Positions 11,278 through 35,958 of a stretch of DNA of 64,000 bases are shown here, piece after piece (position 1 is the first letter of the stretch; each line of letters opens with the position of its first letter). This stretch comes from Streptomyces sp. NBC_01351 (GTDB lineage: Bacteria; Actinomycetota; Actinomycetes; Streptomycetales; Streptomycetaceae): the NCBI RefSeq assembly GCF_036237315.1, contig NZ_CP108356.1, forward strand, positions 5,027,501 through 5,091,500, in the 5' to 3' direction. Position numbers and translations under genes: made by a program. The notes below the pieces were generated by a model. It saw nothing but the letters and a program-made list of their open reading frames with translations. It ran no database searches and was not told where the DNA came from.

Positions 11278-14200
11278 GTGGACCCGACGCTACGACGATC
11301 GTTGCGCATGCGCCGAGGGCTGGGAGCCGCCACGCTGGCCCTGGTCACCGGCGCCGCGTCACTGACCGTGGCCCTGCCCGAAGCTGTCGCCGCCCCGGCT
11401 GCCGGCGCCCCCGCCGAGCTGGTGCTGCCCGCGGCCCCGCGGGGTCTCCCGGCCAGGGACCAGCTCTTCGTGGCGGGCGACACCGGCCTGCTGCACGCCC
11501 GTGAAGGCAGCGACCGGTTGCTGTGGACCCGGTACGACACCGGCGCCACCACCGACACCGGTCTGCGGCTGCCCGCCCCGGTCAGCGGGAACCTGGACGG
11601 CGGCGAGCCCGCAGGCGGTTACAGGGGAACCCCCGACCACCGCTACGGAACCTCCTCCGACACCGCGGCGATCCACACGGCGGCCACGGGGCAGGCTCCC
11701 GCCAAGGTCGACCTGTACGACCTGGCCACCGGCCGGCCGGTGGCACTCGGCACCGTCGCGATCCCGGCAGGGCAGACCTACTACGGGACGTACGGGCGCA
11801 CCGTGCTGACCTTCGAGGGCAGCGGCTCCACCGTCACCGGCTGGTACCTGAACCGGCTCGACGGTGGCTCCACGGTCCGCACCAAGGTGGCGCTGCCCGC
11901 CGACGCGGTCCTCGCGACCTCGGTGCACGACGGCGACCAGAACTCGCTGATCCTGCGTCACCGCCTGGACAACCTCAGCCACTCCGTCCTCGTGGACGTC
12001 GTGACGGGGCAGACCACCCCACTGCCGGACGAGGGGGAGTTCGAGTTCTCGCACACCTTCCGGCTGGCCAAGGGCGCGGTGCTGCGCACCGGCGACCAGA
12101 ACATGGTGGACGTGCTGGACCGGGCGCAGCCGCAGACCGTGCTGAGTTCCACGTACTTCAACCCGATGGGCGGCGAGCTGCGGCTGCTCGGCAACTGGCT
12201 GCTCAGCACCGAGCCCACTGCGGGAACCTCCGGTGACAACCGGGGTCGTCCGCTGAGCTTCGCGCCCCTCGGATCGACCTCCGGAATCATCGAGTACCTG
12301 CTGGAGTTCGCCGACAGCCAGCTGCTGCCCGCGCCGGACGGATCGCTCATCGCGGTCGGCAGCCCGAAGGCCCCCGCGTACGGAACCCAGCCGGAAACCG
12401 CCGTCCACCGGATCACCGCGGACGGTACCGCCAAGCCGCTGTCGGCCCGGCTGGCGGCCGTCCCCCCGGCACCCGCCACCGTCTTCGGCCTGTCGATCGG
12501 TGGTGGCGTGCTCACCGCCGCCTCCGACACCGTCCAGTTCCAGCCGGGCGACATCACCGGCGCGTACCGCAGCTACCGGGTCTCGAACGACGCGACCCCG
12601 GTGAAGACCTTCGAGACCCTCGACGGCACGCACTCCATCAGCAACTGCTACAGCTTCAACGCCGGCTGCGTCGGCCTCCGGTCCACCGGGGACGGCCGCT
12701 ACCTGGAGCACGAGCCGGTGACCAGGAATGCGGCCGTCATCCGCAAAACCGGCAGCCGGGAATGGGCCGGCACCGTACCCACCGGTGACGTCAACGGGCT
12801 GCAGACCGCGGACGCCTCGGGCCGCTACGTGGTGCTCGCCCAGACCGCGTACGGCAACTTCACGTCCAACCACCCGGTGATCGTCGGCGATCTCGACACC
12901 CGTGCCCAGGTGTTCCAGACGCGGGCGACGGGCGTCGCCGTACAGGGCGACACGCTGTGGACTTCGAAGGAGGGCGACACCACCGTCTACGCCACCGACG
13001 TGCGGGGCGTGCTGGACCGCGGCACCTTCACCACGCCGTGCCCGGCCACGCTGCTGGAGGCCGTCGGGCGCTTCGTCAGCTGGGGCTGCCAGGACAACCA
13101 GGGCACGGTGCGCACCAGCGGTGTGTACGACACGGTGACCCGCCAGACCCTCTCGGTGCCGGTGCAGACCGTCGGCTGGTCCGACGTGACCTGGGGCCGG
13201 GAGTCCCTCCTCGGCGACGGCTATCTGGTACGCCAGGACCGGGCCACCGGCCGGCTGTTGCTGCTCGACTTCCACGACGGCATCAAGACCTCCGGCGGCG
13301 AGAACACCGTGCAGGTCCGCACGCTCGCCGAGGGTCAGGAATGGAAGTCCTTCCGTCAGCCGAACCGGTCCTGGGCCGTCGACCGCACCGGCGCGAACAT
13401 CGTCTGGACCGACGCCGACGGGCAGCGCATCCACGTCGCCAACAACGGCATCCCGGCCCCCCAGGCCGGCGACCGCTTCACCGCGCTCTCCCCGGCACGA
13501 CTGCTGGACACCCGCGAGGCCCTCGGCCGTCCCGGGACCCATCCGGTGGCGGCCGGCGGCGAGGTGTCGCTGCAGGTCGCGGGCCGGGGAGGGGTGCCGC
13601 AGTCCGGGGTGAAGGCGGTCGTGCTGAACGTGACCGTGACCGACACGAAGTCCGACGGCTACGTGACCGCCTGGCCGTCGGGCACCACGCGGCCGGACTC
13701 CTCCAACCTCAACTGGACGACCGGGCGAACCGTACCGAACCAGGTCGTGGTGGCGGTGGGTGAGGACGGCAAGGTGAACCTGCGCAACGCGGGCTGGGGC
13801 ACGGCGCACCTGATCGCCGACGTCTTCGGCTACTACTCCGCGGATGCCGGCGGCAGCACCTTCACCCCGGCGGGCCCGGCACGGCTGCTGGACTCGCGGG
13901 AGGCGCTGGGCCGGCCGGGAACCACTCCGGTGCCGGCCAGTGGCGAGGTGTCGCTGCAGGTCGCGGGTCGTGGCGGTGTCCCGCAGAGCGGCGTCAAAGC
14001 CGTCGTGCTGAACCTGACCGTGACGGACGCGAAGGACCGCGGGTACCTGACGGCGTGGCCGTCGGGCAGCGAACGGCCGAACACGTCCAGCCTCAACTGG
14101 ACGGCGGGCCAGACCGTACCCAACCACGTGGTGGTCCCGGTCGGTGCGGACGGCAAGGTGAAGCTGTTCAACGGCAGCTGGAACAGTGCCCACTTGGTCG

Positions 14201-14586
14201 CCGACGTCTTCGGCTACTACTCCGACGACCCGGCCGGCGGCACCTTCCACACCGCCGGTCCCAAGCGCATGTTCGACACCCGGACCACCGGCGCGGTGCC
14301 CGCGGGCGCGAGCACCGTGCTGGACCTCTCAGGAAGCCGGGAACTCGGGCGTGCCAAGGCGGTCGTGCTGAACGTGACGGTGACCGAGCCGAAGTCCGAC
14401 GGCTACCTGACCGCGTGGCCCTCGGGCGCCACCCGTCCCGGCTCGTCCAACCTCAACTGGACGACCGGCAGCACCGTGGCCAACCTGGTGACGGTGCCGG
14501 TGGGCGCCGACGGCAAGGTGGAGTTCGCCAACAGCGGTTGGGGCTCCGCGCATGTGATCGTCGACCTCTTCGGCTACCTCGGCTGA
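11278..14586 (+). CDS. Large secreted protein: predicted beta-propeller plus three C-terminal repeats
   Basis: Exported protein of 1102 residues of unknown function. An N-terminal signal peptide (MDPTLRRSLRMRRG, then a hydrophobic stretch ending near EAVAAPAA) is followed by about 690 residues of repetitive beta-rich sequence that look like irregular propeller blades. Three tandem ~120-residue repeats (residues ~735-853, 862-983, 989-1102) then share PARLLDTREALGRPG, KAVVLNVTVTDTKSDGY, TAWPSG, SSNLNWTTG and HLIADVFGYYS. Such repeats occur at the C-termini of actinobacterial exported proteins and may bind the cell surface (inference). The GTG at 11278 has GAGAGG six bases upstream. It is flanked by terminators on both sides, so it is monocistronic. 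Confidence 0.75.
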   Translation: MDPTLRRSLRMRRGLGAATLALVTGAASLTVALPEAVAAPAAGAPAELVLPAAPRGLPARDQLFVAGDTGLLHAREGSDRLLWTRYDTGATTDTGLRLPAPVSGNLDGGEPAGGYRGTPDHRYGTSSDTAAIHTAATGQAPAKVDLYDLATGRPVALGTVAIPAGQTYYGTYGRTVLTFEGSGSTVTGWYLNRLDGGSTVRTKVALPADAVLATSVHDGDQNSLILRHRLDNLSHSVLVDVVTGQTTPLPDEGEFEFSHTFRLAKGAVLRTGDQNMVDVLDRAQPQTVLSSTYFNPMGGELRLLGNWLLSTEPTAGTSGDNRGRPLSFAPLGSTSGIIEYLLEFADSQLLPAPDGSLIAVGSPKAPAYGTQPETAVHRITADGTAKPLSARLAAVPPAPATVFGLSIGGGVLTAASDTVQFQPGDITGAYRSYRVSNDATPVKTFETLDGTHSISNCYSFNAGCVGLRSTGDGRYLEHEPVTRNAAVIRKTGSREWAGTVPTGDVNGLQTADASGRYVVLAQTAYGNFTSNHPVIVGDLDTRAQVFQTRATGVAVQGDTLWTSKEGDTTVYATDVRGVLDRGTFTTPCPATLLEAVGRFVSWGCQDNQGTVRTSGVYDTVTRQTLSVPVQTVGWSDVTWGRESLLGDGYLVRQDRATGRLLLLDFHDGIKTSGGENTVQVRTLAEGQEWKSFRQPNRSWAVDRTGANIVWTDADGQRIHVANNGIPAPQAGDRFTALSPARLLDTREALGRPGTHPVAAGGEVSLQVAGRGGVPQSGVKAVVLNVTVTDTKSDGYVTAWPSGTTRPDSSNLNWTTGRTVPNQVVVAVGEDGKVNLRNAGWGTAHLIADVFGYYSADAGGSTFTPAGPARLLDSREALGRPGTTPVPASGEVSLQVAGRGGVPQSGVKAVVLNLTVTDAKDRGYLTAWPSGSERPNTSSLNWTAGQTVPNHVVVPVGADGKVKLFNGSWNSAHLVADVFGYYSDDPAGGTFHTAGPKRMFDTRTTGAVPAGASTVLDLSGSRELGRAKAVVLNVTVTEPKSDGYLTAWPSGATRPGSSNLNWTTGSTVANLVTVPVGADGKVEFANSGWGSAHVIVDLFGYLG

Positions 14587-19862: not shown

Positions 19863-21728
19863 ATGGGCGGCATGGCTGGTGGGGTGGGCAAGCGCGAGCA
19901 CGTGCGGGTGGCGGTGATCGGGTCCGGTTTCGGCGGACTCGGTGCGGCCGTGCGGTTGCGGCGCGAGGGGATCACCGACTTCGTCGTACTGGAGCGGGCC
20001 GACTCGGTGGGCGGGACCTGGCGCGACAACAGCTACCCGGGGTGCGCCTGCGACGTGCCCTCCCACCTGTACTCCTTCTCCTTCGCGCCCAACCCGGACT
20101 GGCCCCGCACCTTCTCCGGGCAGCCGGCCATCCGGGAGTACCTGGAGCACGTCGCCGACACCTTCGGGCTGCGCCGGCACATCCGGCTGAACCACGAGGT
20201 CCGGATGATGCGGTGGGACGCGGACGAGCTGCGCTGGGAGATCGAGACCTCGGCCGGCGAGCTGACCGCCGATGTCGTCGTCTCCGCGACGGGGCCGCTG
20301 TCCGACCCGAAGATGCCGGAGATCCCGGGGCTCGCCGAGTTCCCCGGCAAGGTCTTCCACTCCGCGCGCTGGGACCACGACTACGACCTCGCCGGCAAGC
20401 GCGTCGCCATGATCGGTACGGGTGCCTCCGCCATCCAGATCGTGCCCGCCATCGCCCCCGAGGTGGAGCGGCTGACGTTGTTCCAGCGGACCCCGCCGTG
20501 GGTCATGCCGCGCACCGACCGGGCCATCACCGCCGTGGAGCGCTGGCTGCACCGCCAGCTGCCCTTCACCCGGGCGGCGCGGCGCGGGCTGCTGTGGGGG
20601 ATCCGGGAGCTCCAGGTCAGCGCCTTCACCAAGCGGCCGAACCAGCTCGGGCTGATCGAGTCGCTCGCCAAGGCCAACATGGCCCGTTCGATCAAGGACC
20701 CTGCGCTGCGGGCCAAGCTGACGCCCTCGTACCGGATCGGCTGCAAGCGGATCCTGCTGTCGAGCGAGTACTACCCGGCCCTGGCGAGGCCGAATGTGGA
20801 CCTGGTCGCCTCCGGTTTGAAGGAGATCCGCGGCTCGGTGCTGGTCGCCGCCGACGGGACCGAGACCGAGGTCGACGCGATCGTCTTCGGTACGGGCTTC
20901 CACGTCACGGACATGCCGATCGCCGACCGGGTGGTGGGCGCGGAGGGCCAGACCCTCGCGGACGCCTGGAAGGACGGGATGCAGGCGCTGCGCGGGGCGA
21001 CCGCGGCCGGCTTCCCCAACTGGATGACGATCATCGGCCCGAACACCGGGCTGGGGAACAGCTCGATGATCCTGATGATCGAGTCGCAGCTGAACTACAT
21101 GGCGGATTACCTGCGGCAGCTCGGCGTGCTGGGGGGCAGGGTCGCGCTGGCGGCGCGGCCGTCGGCGGTGAACCAGTGGAACCGGCAGGTGCAGACGCGG
21201 ATGGAGCGGACGGTGTGGAACACCGGCGGCTGCACCAGCTGGTACCTGGACGCGCAGGGGCGCAACACCACGGTGTGGCCGGGGACGACGGGGGAGTTCC
21301 GGAAGGAGACCCGGCAGGTCGACCTTGCCGAGTACGAGGTCGTACGGGTGCGGGAGCGGGAGCCGGCCGGTGTGGCTGCCTCGGTGTCGGCTCCCGCGGT
21401 GTCGGCTGCCGCCGCGGCGAAGTCGGGGCGCCGTCGGGCGGGCTCCGAGGGGTCCGGTGCGGCGCCGCTGTCGGGGGCTCTGCCCCCGAGCCCCCGCGCC
21501 TCAAACGCCGGCGAGGCTGGATTTGCCCCCGGCGGGGCCTCGAACGCAGGCGGGGCTGGATTTGCCTCCGGCGGGGCCTCGAACGCCGGCGGGGCTGGAT
21601 TTGCCTCCGGCGGGGCCTCGAACGCAGGCGGGGCTGGATTTGCCTCCGGTGGGGGCTCGGATGTCGGCGGGGCTGGGTTGGGCTCCGGCCCGGCTGATGG
21701 GGTTCGTGCCGAGGAGGGGGCCGCGTGA
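19863..21728 (+). CDS. Flavin-dependent (Baeyer-Villiger type) monooxygenase with repeat tail
   Basis: FAD/NADPH monooxygenase inserting oxygen next to a ketone or into a related carbonyl. 621 residues. FAD motif VAVIGSGFGGLGAAV (~residue 18), the Baeyer-Villiger fingerprint FPGKVFHSARW (FxGxxxHxxxW) and the NADPH motif VAMIGTGASAIQIV are all intact. The catalytic part ends near residue 500. Residues ~547-611 are five 13-residue repeats of the type SNAGGAGFASGGA encoded by 39-bp DNA repeats. The ATG at 19863 follows GGAAGG; an upstream GTG at 19818 lies in the regulatory repeat. It heads a three-gene operon with GTGA overlap to the hydrolase. Confidence 0.85.
   Translation: MGGMAGGVGKREHVRVAVIGSGFGGLGAAVRLRREGITDFVVLERADSVGGTWRDNSYPGCACDVPSHLYSFSFAPNPDWPRTFSGQPAIREYLEHVADTFGLRRHIRLNHEVRMMRWDADELRWEIETSAGELTADVVVSATGPLSDPKMPEIPGLAEFPGKVFHSARWDHDYDLAGKRVAMIGTGASAIQIVPAIAPEVERLTLFQRTPPWVMPRTDRAITAVERWLHRQLPFTRAARRGLLWGIRELQVSAFTKRPNQLGLIESLAKANMARSIKDPALRAKLTPSYRIGCKRILLSSEYYPALARPNVDLVASGLKEIRGSVLVAADGTETEVDAIVFGTGFHVTDMPIADRVVGAEGQTLADAWKDGMQALRGATAAGFPNWMTIIGPNTGLGNSSMILMIESQLNYMADYLRQLGVLGGRVALAARPSAVNQWNRQVQTRMERTVWNTGGCTSWYLDAQGRNTTVWPGTTGEFRKETRQVDLAEYEVVRVREREPAGVAASVSAPAVSAAAAAKSGRRRAGSEGSGAAPLSGALPPSPRASNAGEAGFAPGGASNAGGAGFASGGASNAGGAGFASGGASNAGGAGFASGGGSDVGGAGLGSGPADGVRAEEGAA
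21501..21695 (+). repeat. Five in-frame 39-bp tandem repeats
   Basis: Units start at 21501, 21540, 21579, 21618 and 21657. The first begins TCAAACGCCGGCGAGGCTGG, matching the intergenic repeat near 17430, and later units are variants. They are in frame with the monooxygenase gene; the last unit is the most diverged. Confidence 0.85.
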
Positions 21729-30954: not shown

Positions 30955-31995
30955 ATGCACGTGCCCGACGGATTCATCAACGCACCCGTGTCGGTGGCCG
31001 CCGGAGTGGCAGCCGCCGCAGCCGTCGCCGTGAGCCTGCGCGGCGCGCGCCGGGAGCTCGACGAGCGCACCGCGCCGCTCGCCGGCCTCGTCGCCGCCTT
31101 CATCTTCGCCGTGCAGATGCTGAACTTCCCCGTCGCCGCCGGCACCAGCGGCCACCTGCTGGGCGGGGCGCTCGCCGCGATACTCGTCGGCCCCTATACC
31201 GGCGTGCTGTGCGTGTCCGTGGTCCTCCTCATGCAGGGCATCCTCTTCGCCGACGGCGGCCTGACCGCCCTCGGCGTGAACATCACCGTGATGGGCGTCG
31301 TCACCGTCGTCGTCGCCTACGCCGTCTTCCGCGGACTGCTCAAGGTGCTGCCGGCCGGTCGCCGCTCCGTGACCGTCGCCGCCTTCACCGGAGCCCTGCT
31401 CTCGGTGCCCGCCTCGGCCGCCGCCTTCACCGCCCTGTACGCCGTCGGCGGCACCGCCGACGTCGCCATCGGCAAGGTGCTCACCGCCATGGTCGGCGTG
31501 CACGTCCTCATCGGCCTCGGCGAGGCCGCCATCACCGTGGCGACCGTGGGCGCCGTCATCGCCGTACGCCCCGACCTGGTGCACGGGGCGCGCGAGCTGA
31601 CCGCCCCGCTGAAGCTGCGCGTCGGCGGCGAACTGGTCGACGCGCCGGCCGCCGCGCCCGCGGCCGCGCCCGCCGCCGCCCGCTCCACCGCGAAGGTGTG
31701 GATCACCGGCCTGGTCACCGCCCTCGTCCTCGCCGGCTTCGTCTCCTTCTACGCCTCCGCGAGCCCCGACGGCCTGGAGAAGGTCGCCGCCGACCAGGGC
31801 ATCGACGCCACGGTGGAGGAGCACGCCGCGAAGGACTCCCCGCTCGCCGACTACGCCGTCAAGGACGTCACCGACGCCCGCCTCTCCGGCGGCCTCGCGG
31901 GCGCCCTCGGCGTCGGCGCGACCGTCGCCGTCGGCACCGGGATCTTCTGGGTCGTGCGCCGCCGCCGGACGGCCGAGCCCTCGGTCGCGGTCTGA
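30955..31995 (+). CDS. cbiM: ECF metal transporter S-component CbiM with fused PDGLE domain
   Basis: Membrane component that captures Co2+ or Ni2+. 346 residues. It starts MHVPDGFINAPVSV; the N-terminal MHVPDG loop supplies the metal ligands in CbiM/NikM. About six helices follow to residue ~215. After an Ala-rich linker, a CbiN-like part contains SPDGLEKVAADQGID (PDGLE domain), so the small subunit is fused. GGAG six bases before the ATG. The stop overlaps a minicistron (TGATG). The Nur-like box suggests nickel rather than cobalt. Confidence 0.9.
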   Translation: MHVPDGFINAPVSVAAGVAAAAAVAVSLRGARRELDERTAPLAGLVAAFIFAVQMLNFPVAAGTSGHLLGGALAAILVGPYTGVLCVSVVLLMQGILFADGGLTALGVNITVMGVVTVVVAYAVFRGLLKVLPAGRRSVTVAAFTGALLSVPASAAAFTALYAVGGTADVAIGKVLTAMVGVHVLIGLGEAAITVATVGAVIAVRPDLVHGARELTAPLKLRVGGELVDAPAAAPAAAPAAARSTAKVWITGLVTALVLAGFVSFYASASPDGLEKVAADQGIDATVEEHAAKDSPLADYAVKDVTDARLSGGLAGALGVGATVAVGTGIFWVVRRRRTAEPSVAV

Positions 31996-32039
31996 TGGGC
32001 GCCGTTCGTTCGGGCGCCATCCGTTCGGGCGCCGTCTGA
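31995..32039 (+). CDS. 14-codon minicistron between cbiM and cbiQ
   Basis: The cbiM stop forms TGATG with an ATG that opens MGAVRSGAIRSGAV and stops in another TGATG. There is no ribosome site, so it would be translated only by ribosomes finishing cbiM. The peptide is encoded by repeated GGGCGCCGT-like units and probably has no function; its likely effect is to hand ribosomes on towards cbiQ. Confidence 0.4.
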   Translation: MGAVRSGAIRSGAV

Positions 32040-32053
32040 TGGGCGCCGTCTGA
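32039..32053 (+). CDS. 4-codon minicistron MGAV before cbiQ
   Basis: ATGGGCGCCGTCTGA starts in one TGATG and ends in the next, whose ATG is the cbiQ start. It is the second link in a chain of three stop/start overlaps and looks like a tandem copy of the original gene junction. Confidence 0.35.
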   Translation: MGAV

Positions 32054-32814
32054 TGGGCGCGGGCCACGCGCACAAGCTCTACCGGCACGCGCACACGCCC
32101 GTCCACGCCCTGCCGCCGCACTGCAAGCTCGCCGCGACCTTCGCCTTCGTCCTGGTCGTCGTCTCCACACCGCGCGAGGCGGTGTGGGCCTTCGGGGCGT
32201 ACGCCGTCCTCATCGCGGCGGCCGCGGCCGTGGCCCGCATCCCGGCCGGCTTCCTGCTGCGCAGGATGCTGATCGAGATCCCCTTCGTCGCCTTCGCCGT
32301 CCTCATGCCCTTCGTCGCGCAGGGCGAGCGGGTGGAGGTCCTCGGCATGTCCCTGAGCGTCTCGGGGCTGTGGGGCGCATGGAACGTCCTGGCCAAGGGC
32401 ACGCTCGGCGTCGCCGCCTCCGTCCTGCTCGCCTCGACGACGGAACTGCGGGCGCTGCTGCTCGGCCTGCAGAGGCTGAAGCTGCCCCCGCTCCTCGTCC
32501 AGATCGCCTCCTTCATGATCCGCTACGGCGACGTGATCGGCGACGAGCTGCGCCGGATGTCCATCGCCCGCCGCTCGCGCGGTTTCGAGGCCCGCGGCAT
32601 CCGGCACTGGGGAGTGCTGGCGAAGACCGCCGGCGCCCTGTTCATCCGCTCCTACGAGCGCGGCGAGCGGGTCTACCTCGCGATGGTCAGCCGCGGCTAC
32701 GCCGGCTCGATGCCGGTGATCGACGAAGTCGCGGCAACGCCCACAGAGTGGGCGCGCGCCTCCGCGCTCCCTGTGACAGCACTGGCCGTACTGGCCGTCT
32801 GTCTGTTGGGGTGA
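32053..32814 (+). CDS. cbiQ: ECF transporter transmembrane T-component CbiQ
   Basis: Couples ATP hydrolysis by CbiO to metal uptake through CbiM. 253 residues with five or six helices; the two coupling motifs appear as ARRSRGFEARG (A-R-G type) and the more C-terminal MVSRGYAG. No Shine-Dalgarno is present at the ATG, so translation probably depends on the stop/start chain from cbiM. A small CCGCC-TGA-GGCGG hairpin (32820-32832) follows, between cbiQ and cbiO. Confidence 0.9.
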   Translation: MGAGHAHKLYRHAHTPVHALPPHCKLAATFAFVLVVVSTPREAVWAFGAYAVLIAAAAAVARIPAGFLLRRMLIEIPFVAFAVLMPFVAQGERVEVLGMSLSVSGLWGAWNVLAKGTLGVAASVLLASTTELRALLLGLQRLKLPPLLVQIASFMIRYGDVIGDELRRMSIARRSRGFEARGIRHWGVLAKTAGALFIRSYERGERVYLAMVSRGYAGSMPVIDEVAATPTEWARASALPVTALAVLAVCLLG

Positions 32815-32932
32815 CTCCTCCGCCTGAGGCGGCTTCTCACTCGCCTCCGAAAAGGCTCACGACGGCCAAGCCCTGACCGCTGCTGTCGCAGGTAACCCAT
32901 CGTAGTGGAATCAGCACCGTTAGGAGATGCAG

Positions 32933-33703
<771 letters not shown>

Positions 33704-34976: not shown

Positions 34977-35177
34977 GGGCGGTGGTTTCGGCTCGGGGCG
35001 GTGTGGGTGCGGGCCCGGCCGGGTCCGGGCGCGCGCCGGGGCGTCTCCTCGGGCGTCGAACGTGGCGAGGGGTCGGTGGGCCGGGCGGCGGTTGCGTTCG
35101 ACGCCCTGCGGGGACGCCCCGACGCACACCCGGCCCCGTCCGGTCCGGCGGGCACCGGGCCGAGGCGGCGGACGCGG
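34977..35177. other. GC-rich intergenic DNA, no gene seen
   Basis: Long G and C runs, no credible start site and no strong terminator hairpin that I can define. It precedes the duplicated ybaK fragment. Confidence 0.4.
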
Positions 35178-35377
35178 CTCAGCCTTGCTCGCGTACGTCG
35201 GCGAGGGTGGCGCACGCGTGGGCGATGAGCTCGGCGGGGGCCATCGGGAAGACGGTGTTCGGGGTGCCGGCCGCTGCCCATACCTCCGTGTGGGCGAGGA
35301 GGGACCGGTCGGCCAGTACCCGGGTGCGGGTGCGGTGGCCGAAGGGCGGGACCCCGCCGATGGCGTAGCCGGTGGTT
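35178..35377 (-). pseudogene. Truncated tandem duplicate of the ybaK 3' end
   Basis: These 200 bases repeat 35481-35680 with a constant offset of 303 and only a few differences at the left edge. On the minus strand they encode the last ~64 residues of YbaK, ending DVRE-Q-G instead of DVRE-T-G, with no start. The 103 bases between the copies hold no gene that I can see. A recent local duplication. Confidence 0.8.
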
Positions 35378-35481
35378 GCCGCTCTTGACGCGCCGCTCGC
35401 GCGGTTCGGCCCTGGCGGGCCTTACCGGCTTCGCGCCGCTGCGCCGGACTCCGTCCGTCGGTGGTGGGTGGGGCGGTGCGC

Positions 35482-35958
35482 TCAGCCGGTTTCGCGTACG
35501 TCGGCGAGGGTGGCGCACGCGTGGGCGATGAGCTCGGCGGGGGCCATCGGGAAGACGGTGTTCGGGGTGCCGGCCGCTGCCCATACCTCCGTGTGGGCGA
35601 GGAGGGACCGGTCGGCCAGTACCCGGGTGCGGGTGCGGTGGCCGAAGGGCGGGACCCCGCCGATGGCGTAGCCGGTGGTTTCCCGGACGACGGTGGCGTC
35701 CGCCCGGGTCACCTTCCCGGCGCCGAGCTCGCGGCGTACGGCGTCCACGTCGACCCGGGAAGCGCCGTCCATGAGGACCAGCACCGGGACCCCGTCCGCG
35801 GCGAAGATCAGCGACTTGACGATCTGGCTGAGCTCGCAGCCGATCGCGGCGGCCGCGTCGGCGGCCGTACGGGTCCCCTCGGGGAAGCTCCGGACGGTGA
35901 GGTCGATACCCAGGCCGGCGAGGGCCTCGGCGAACAGGGGATGCGCGGTGGTCGTCAT
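35482..35958 (-). CDS. ybaK: YbaK/EbsC (prolyl-tRNA editing) family protein
   Basis: YbaK-type proteins hydrolyse mischarged aminoacyl-tRNAs such as Cys-tRNA(Pro). 158 residues: AAAIGCELSQIVKSLIFAADG, with the conserved Lys of the active site, then GYAIGGVPPFGH and DRSLLAHTEVWAAAGTPNTVF. The ATG at 35958 lacks a clear Shine-Dalgarno; TAGCGT a few bases upstream could be a -10 for a leaderless mRNA. The 3' part is duplicated downstream. Which amino acid it edits cannot be told. Confidence 0.88.
   Translation of the reverse strand: MTTTAHPLFAEALAGLGIDLTVRSFPEGTRTAADAAAAIGCELSQIVKSLIFAADGVPVLVLMDGASRVDVDAVRRELGAGKVTRADATVVRETTGYAIGGVPPFGHRTRTRVLADRSLLAHTEVWAAAGTPNTVFPMAPAELIAHACATLADVRETG

Follow-up and report, generated by a model that had tools for sequence, protein, structure and literature searches.

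The window analysed here, meaning the whole 64,000-nucleotide (nt) stretch of DNA under study, is part of the genome of Streptomyces sp. NBC_01351 (contig NZ_CP108356.1, positions 5,027,501 to 5,091,500) and includes a junction between cbiM and cbiQ that is occupied by two minicistrons. CbiM, CbiQ and a CbiO-like ATPase constitute an ECF-type cobalt transporter, and their genes are consecutive and lie in the same direction (+). CbiQ was identified by its TIGR02454 score, which exceeds the cut-off of this model. Same-direction genes encoding the subunits of one complex are a mark of coupled gene pairs, and the three genes show this arrangement. The cbiM stop codon, a 14-codon open reading frame (ORF), a four-codon ORF and cbiQ are linked by three TGATG motifs, which can be read directly from the DNA and had already been described in an earlier sequence-only reading of this stretch (Table 1). 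Each of the three hops amounts to -1 nt, so that stop and start are adjacent hop by hop only, with cbiM and cbiQ themselves lying 57 nt apart.

Table 1. Features of the cbiM-cbiQ junction and the adjoining genes (positions in the window; SD, Shine-Dalgarno sequence)
Feature	Position (strand)	Description	Basis
cbiM	30955..31995 (+)	with CbiN-like PDGLE domain; stop TGA 31993-31995	ORF list, domain identification
Tandem array	31986..32060 (+)	14/15-nt unit, across the junction	repeat analysis
TGATG overlap 1	31993..31997 (+)	cbiM stop / minicistron 1 start	sequence
Minicistron 1	31995..32039 (+)	predicted ORF, 14 codons, MGAVRSGAIRSGAV, then stop	sequence, relay test
TGATG overlap 2	32037..32041 (+)	minicistron 1 stop / minicistron 2 start	sequence
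Minicistron 2	32039..32053 (+)	predicted ORF, 4 codons, MGAV, then stop	sequence, relay test
TGATG overlap 3	32051..32055 (+)	minicistron 2 stop / cbiQ start	sequence
cbiQ	32053..32814 (+)	ATG at 32053; without SD	ORF list, domain identification, anti-SD energies
cbiO-like ATPase gene	32927..33703 (+)	112 nt past the cbiQ stop codon	ORF list, domain identification

The 57 nt between the two genes may be divided into tandem units of 15, 15, 14 and 14 nt. At a period of 14 the array comprises 5.2 copies (31986-32060), at a period of 15 it comprises 3.7 copies (31997-32050), and it holds three 25-nt copies at spacings of 44 and 14 nt. Its unit consists of the final cbiM bases fused to the opening cbiQ codons, and the array therefore looks like a duplicated junction, in agreement with the initial impression that the minicistrons are tandem copies of it. 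A unit of 14 nt keeps the stop/start chain intact because one base of frame is consumed per overlap. The absence of a Shine-Dalgarno (SD) sequence at cbiQ was likewise corroborated and applies to every restart: the duplex energies with an assumed anti-SD core are -2.4 kcal/mol for the first minicistron, -2.5 for the second and -2.4 for cbiQ, against a background median of -3.2 (1108 positions). About 4% of the shuffles of this spacer produce an unbroken relay. On its own, TGATG-N9-TGATG is no rare motif, with five matches in the genome of the window against one for the reversed control.

To place the window in its genus, 503 distinct cbiM-cbiQ junctions were compared. The first set started from 405 loci, drawn from the best 80 of 562 matches and from a part of the 354 genomes, out of 392, in which cbiQ was found. 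Seven DNA-search matches that were not cbiQ (L112-L118) and three loci lacking a recognisable cbiM end (L138, L363, L364) were discarded, leaving 395 usable loci; after removal of a further 25 that repeated counted junctions or were too short, 370 distinct junctions remained, including five from genera other than Streptomyces (L261-L265) and one labelled just 'Actinobacteria bacterium' (L082). For the second set, 163 additional Streptomyces genomes were searched, yielding 142 loci, of which 133 were distinct and new and nine repeated the first set; four matching places gave no locus in these searches. Starts of cbiQ, and of cbiO in the control described below, were assigned by homology, apart from that of L392, which was set by hand. 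The cbiQ start of L440 probably lies further on, at the ATG behind AGGAAGGGGG, so the gap of this junction is probably understated.

A gap of exactly 1 nt, that is, a stop codon, one base and an ATG or GTG, is found in 408 of the 503 junctions, and the gap lies between -4 and +8 nt in 479. The remaining classes are overlaps of 1-4 nt (15 junctions) and gaps of 0 (2), 2-8 (54), 13-18 (10) and at least 19 nt (14). At first-set gaps of up to 8 nt, the SD sequence ahead of cbiQ is near background (median -3.5 against -3.2 kcal/mol); 61 of the 408 1-nt junctions reach -6 kcal/mol. Since the 1-nt gap is the norm of the genus, cbiQ is probably translated by coupling. Judged by its position, cbiQ is usually placed where termination-reinitiation coupling can work, and in the window this junction appears to have been expanded locally and in tandem. 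The nearest cbiQ relatives in the first set (L002 at 95%, L119 and L036 at 94%) have the 1-nt gap, which makes the expansion specific to the lineage of the window in the sample at hand. In six of the 503 junctions (L256, L332, L347, L358, L392 and L486), GGGGGTACCTCCC stands in frame within the first cbiQ codons and resembles a small recurrent insertion.

Bridging ORFs are also present in other species. A closing mini-ORF was defined as a short ORF that ends within 8 nt of the cbiQ start or overlaps it, and an unbroken relay as a series of hops of at most 12 nt each from cbiM to cbiQ, with ATG, GTG or TTG starts. Among the 24 gaps of at least 13 nt, 13 have a closing mini-ORF and 10 an unbroken relay, compared with 0.71 relays expected from mononucleotide-shuffled spacers. 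The second set alone contributes two relays in eight gaps of at least 9 nt (0.26 expected, P 0.02). In the first set, closing mini-ORFs occur in 10 of 16 gaps of at least 9 nt, with 1.15 expected from dinucleotide shuffles, and in 10 of the 11 gaps of at least 17 nt. The spacer between cbiQ and cbiO served as a control. For spacers of 17-60 nt in the first set, a closing ORF is present in 8/9 cbiM-cbiQ junctions and 2/33 cbiQ-cbiO junctions (Fisher 3e-6), and in 10/12 cbiM-cbiQ spacers of this length when both sets are taken together; at 61-400 nt the counts are 2/2 and 2/10.

The ten unbroken relays are those of the window, L212, L236, L392, L306, L193, L010, L248, L461 and L543, and L212, L236, L306, L392, L461 and L543 are look-alikes of the window. 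The bridge of L212, MGESDMSESDMSEV, has 14 codons made of 15-nt repeats and carries TGACATG at either end. The minicistron of L392 encodes VGAV, nearly the MGAV of the window, and the bridge peptides of L461 and L543 are MTVPETRGA and MEG, respectively. L236 and L392 are tree neighbours and agree in sequence as far as the start of the minicistron. Their spacers of 50 and 17 nt differ by 33 nt, as calculated from the spacer lengths, hence in frame, and both minicistrons still close at cbiQ. In L065, L252 and L419, an ORF closes at cbiQ and is unreachable from cbiM by hops of up to 12 nt with the three start codons; the closing ORF of L419, MGTGH, resembles the start of its own cbiQ, MGAGH. With these start codons, two minicistrons in series are found in the window only; if CTG starts were allowed, L252 would have three. 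The 182-nt spacer of L252 contains 20-nt tandem units, ATGAGCACGAGGACCGGACG, in which the stop of one copy overlaps the start of the next by ATGA. They end on cbiQ and make up a -4-type serial chain.

In a tree built from about 120 residues of the first set, with weak support in places (0.29 around the window), the bridged cases sit in approximately seven places: the window; L212; L236 with L392; L306; L193; L010 with L248 and L065; and L252. This scatter would point to separate origins of the bridges. A strict-pattern search for more relays in 394 genomes of the family returned no match; of the relays then known, L306 would fit the pattern, and its genome (G294) is not among the genomes listed for this search. 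Counts of the bare TGATG-N9-TGATG motif in 41 genomes were too common to be informative. One place in a genome of the same order (G039:C370:2290-2364) shows five overlapping matches to this motif, formed by a 14-nt tandem array of TGATGGCCGGAGCC.

These observations are best accounted for, with a probability of roughly 60%, by a relay that acts as a compensating bridge and keeps cbiQ coupled to cbiM. In Streptomyces, cbiQ would be translated mainly through termination-reinitiation from cbiM. A junction piece of about 14 nt, running from the end of cbiM across the stop/start into the beginning of cbiQ, would have been duplicated in tandem in the lineage of the window, pushing cbiQ 57 nt from the cbiM stop, and the copies would have retained their stop/start overlaps in compatible frame. 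A ribosome ending cbiM could then restart on the 14-codon ORF, end, restart on the four-codon ORF, end again and restart on cbiQ, using a 1-nt overlap each time. The minicistrons would thus compensate for the expansion, and no function is evident for their peptides. For native gene pairs of E. coli, a spacing of +14 nt is reported to lower reinitiation by 40-80% and one of +38 nt to suppress it almost entirely, with the final 15 nt of the upstream gene being enough for it (PMC10666635). On this distance dependence, an unbridged gap of 57 nt lacking an SD sequence should uncouple cbiQ, while three hops of -1 nt need not. From the arrangement we infer that the minicistrons are translated, that cbiQ is reached by reinitiation instead of fresh initiation, and that some CbiQ output is lost at each hop. 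The similar bridges in other Streptomyces suggest, short of proof, that ribosomes pass across them from one gene to the next. The bridges look compensating and not regulatory; the proposal of the sequence-only reading that the relay could tune the CbiM:CbiQ ratio found no support.

Several results weigh against such a bridge. For spacers of 9-16 nt, a closing ORF is found in 0/5 cbiM-cbiQ junctions, compared with 3/17 cbiQ-cbiO junctions. A junction duplication by itself puts a copied stop beside cbiQ, and roughly one in three of the simulated duplications yields a closed minicistron without selection: simulated tandem duplication of 1-nt junctions gave a closed minicistron in 32.5% of cases, an in-frame cbiQ extension in 32.8%, an out-of-frame reading in 32.4% and another stop in 2.3%. 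Duplication by itself thus yields bridges fairly often, and the observed excess mixes mutation and selection. The prediction set before the second set was collected, a closing ORF in all new gaps of at least 19 nt, came true in only two of five (L461, L419). In L523, which failed it, the first minicistron is MSAV, a stop abuts cbiQ and the second hop would need a CTG start. L463 retains the stop beside cbiQ, has no ORF and carries the SD-like AGAGAAGAGG upstream, and L440 has the SD-like AGGAAGGGGG ahead of its probable cbiQ start and no closing ORF. The bridged cbiQ starts of the first set also have stronger SD sequences than short-gap ones (p = 0.007), with 7 of 10 at or below -4.5 kcal/mol, and may therefore initiate afresh. 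In addition, reinitiation as such has been called into question in E. coli (PMC7538156), so that fresh initiation on an opened message stays a rival.

SD-like sequences in place of a bridge are a feature of several long-gap species, for example L324, L389, L463 and L440, and the six ORF-less first-set gaps of 13-18 nt have stronger SD sequences than short-gap junctions (p = 0.0025). With some long gaps bridged and others provided with an SD sequence, there seem to be two ways to tolerate a long gap, often both in the bridged junctions of the first set. The assertion in the sequence-only reading that cbiQ would be reached only by ribosomes restarting three times likewise found no support. The SD energy of the window, -2.4 kcal/mol, is the weakest of the ten bridged first-set junctions. 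Lacking an SD sequence and relying on its bridge alone, the window offers the cleanest natural test.

The bridge could instead be a mutational by-product, in which the junction slips, the duplication copies a stop beside cbiQ and the resulting chain has no role, cbiQ being translated through weak independent initiation or at a reduced level. The 32.5% of simulated duplications that close a minicistron unaided are in line with this, as are the closing ORF missing from three of the five new gaps of at least 19 nt, the SD-like sequences replacing the bridge in some relatives and the variation of the minicistron peptides among species. The missing SD sequence at the cbiQ of the window, the excess of relays over shuffles (10/24 against 0.71) and over the cbiQ-cbiO control at 17-60 nt (2/33), and the in-frame difference between L236 and L392 make this explanation doubtful. 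If coupling operated through RNA unfolding, translating ribosomes would open the message for fresh 30S subunits to start cbiQ, and the minicistrons would just keep ribosomes moving up to its start. The dispute over reinitiation in E. coli (PMC7538156) and the fair SD sequences at most bridged first-set cbiQ starts favour this mode, which is nevertheless unlikely for the window, where a fresh 30S subunit is offered no SD sequence and where the junction folds no more strongly than its shuffles (z -0.39), leaving no unusual structure to open.

A more far-reaching proposal treats the junction as a translational contingency locus: slippage would alter the number of 14-nt units, each unit would add or remove one terminate-restart step, and lineages would set, or strains switch, the dose of CbiQ relative to CbiM, with other unit lengths extending the CbiQ N-terminus or losing CbiQ. 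This appears distinctly improbable. In the window, the cbiQ ATG lies 60 nt downstream of the cbiM TGA (31993) in the same frame, and the 19 intervening codons are open, a point missed by the sequence-only reading. Readthrough of this TGA could therefore yield a CbiM-CbiQ fusion, and 7 of 16 first-set gaps of at least 9 nt are likewise in frame. As the norm of +1 nt (408/503) is out of frame, and so are, apart from the window, five of seven unbroken relays in the first set (L392, L306, L193, L212, L236), the frame is not conserved across junctions; comparative support for a fusion is slight, and the idea was rejected as most improbable. An error of sequencing or assembly in the repeat would be just as surprising. 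Short GC-rich tandem repeats are error-prone, and the array of the window is known from one strain; on the other hand, the 8.9-Mb genome is assembled in three contigs with a completeness of 100, the array spans just about 75 nt and similar arrays exist in other species (L212, L252).

Other sources for the array were considered and set aside. A second copy or a mobile element would not account for it, as the 78-nt stretch has one full match in its own genome and the other 25 matches are short and partial. No Rfam family reached its gathering score between 30000 and 34000, and an RNA element was rejected on this ground and on that of the folding result given above. A leader peptide or upstream-ORF attenuator was also dismissed, given peptides that differ between species, the unremarkable fold and the same Rfam result.

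Coupling at TGATG is well known (PMC6728339). The window is similar to pairs coupled by TGATG or ATGA, which are described as having a stop/start overlap or near contact, often encoding subunits of one complex, and relying on an SD sequence to a gene-dependent degree (PMC6728339, PMC10666635). It differs from them in having two minicistrons between the genes, so that three serial steps would be needed. The nearest precedent are the MIRU small ORFs of mycobacteria, reported in PMC12548453 as short repetitive DNA with an ORF at the start codon, which is coupled to the downstream gene and likely has little effect on it. Both minicistrons of the window are similarly positioned for coupling, with TGATG overlaps towards their neighbours. 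Unlike MIRU, which is apparently mobile and couples at -4 nt according to that source, the repeat here appears to duplicate the junction locally and in tandem, occurs a single time in its genome and has overlaps of -1 nt at all three places. By analogy, the window would resemble MIRU in action, not in kind.

Short unannotated mycobacterial ORFs coupled through RTGA are reported to end precisely at the start of the following gene at more than the expected frequency (PMC4633059). These begin leaderless transcripts, as described there, while the ORFs of the window are intra-operon and would be reached by reinitiation. The two-codon minigene mg2 of axe-txe is a natural mini-ORF reported to raise downstream translation in cis, depending on distance and frame; it is proposed to work through mRNA stability, unlike the bridges of the window (PMC8708949). 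The claim in the sequence-only reading that no such case had been described holds in part. For MIRU, a small ORF is described as becoming coupled to the gene where it inserts (PMC12548453), and in listings of open-licence literature no description was found of a minicistron chain that arises from local duplication and recurs at one operon junction across a genus. Open-licence papers combining cbiM, cbiQ and translational coupling, or MIRU, senX3-regX3 and translational coupling, were not found either.

If the relay works, a stretch of 60 nt would see three terminate-restart events without an SD sequence, two of them on ORFs of 14 and four codons, and the disputed reuse of the same ribosome in prokaryotic coupling would become directly testable at a natural site. 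Species with none, one or two bridges, or with an SD sequence, form a natural series for this. The window also illustrates a way in which two coupled genes may withstand an expansion at the point that links them.

Further observations concern other parts of the window. The ATG called as the start of the cbiO-like gene (32927) directly follows AGGAG within 32920-32935, and a second ATG, at 32933, lies at a better distance from this motif and may be the true start. Positions 35177-35380 and 35480-35683 hold a direct repeat of 204 nt with 98% identity, the copies being described as 303 nt apart. An ORF at 35482-35958 (-) has its 3' part within the second copy, so a piece of this gene appears to be duplicated downstream of it. 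Two additional tandem repeats are a 39-nt array of 4.9 copies with 89% matches at 21498-21689 and a 384-nt unit in two head-to-tail copies with 80% matches at 13491-14262.
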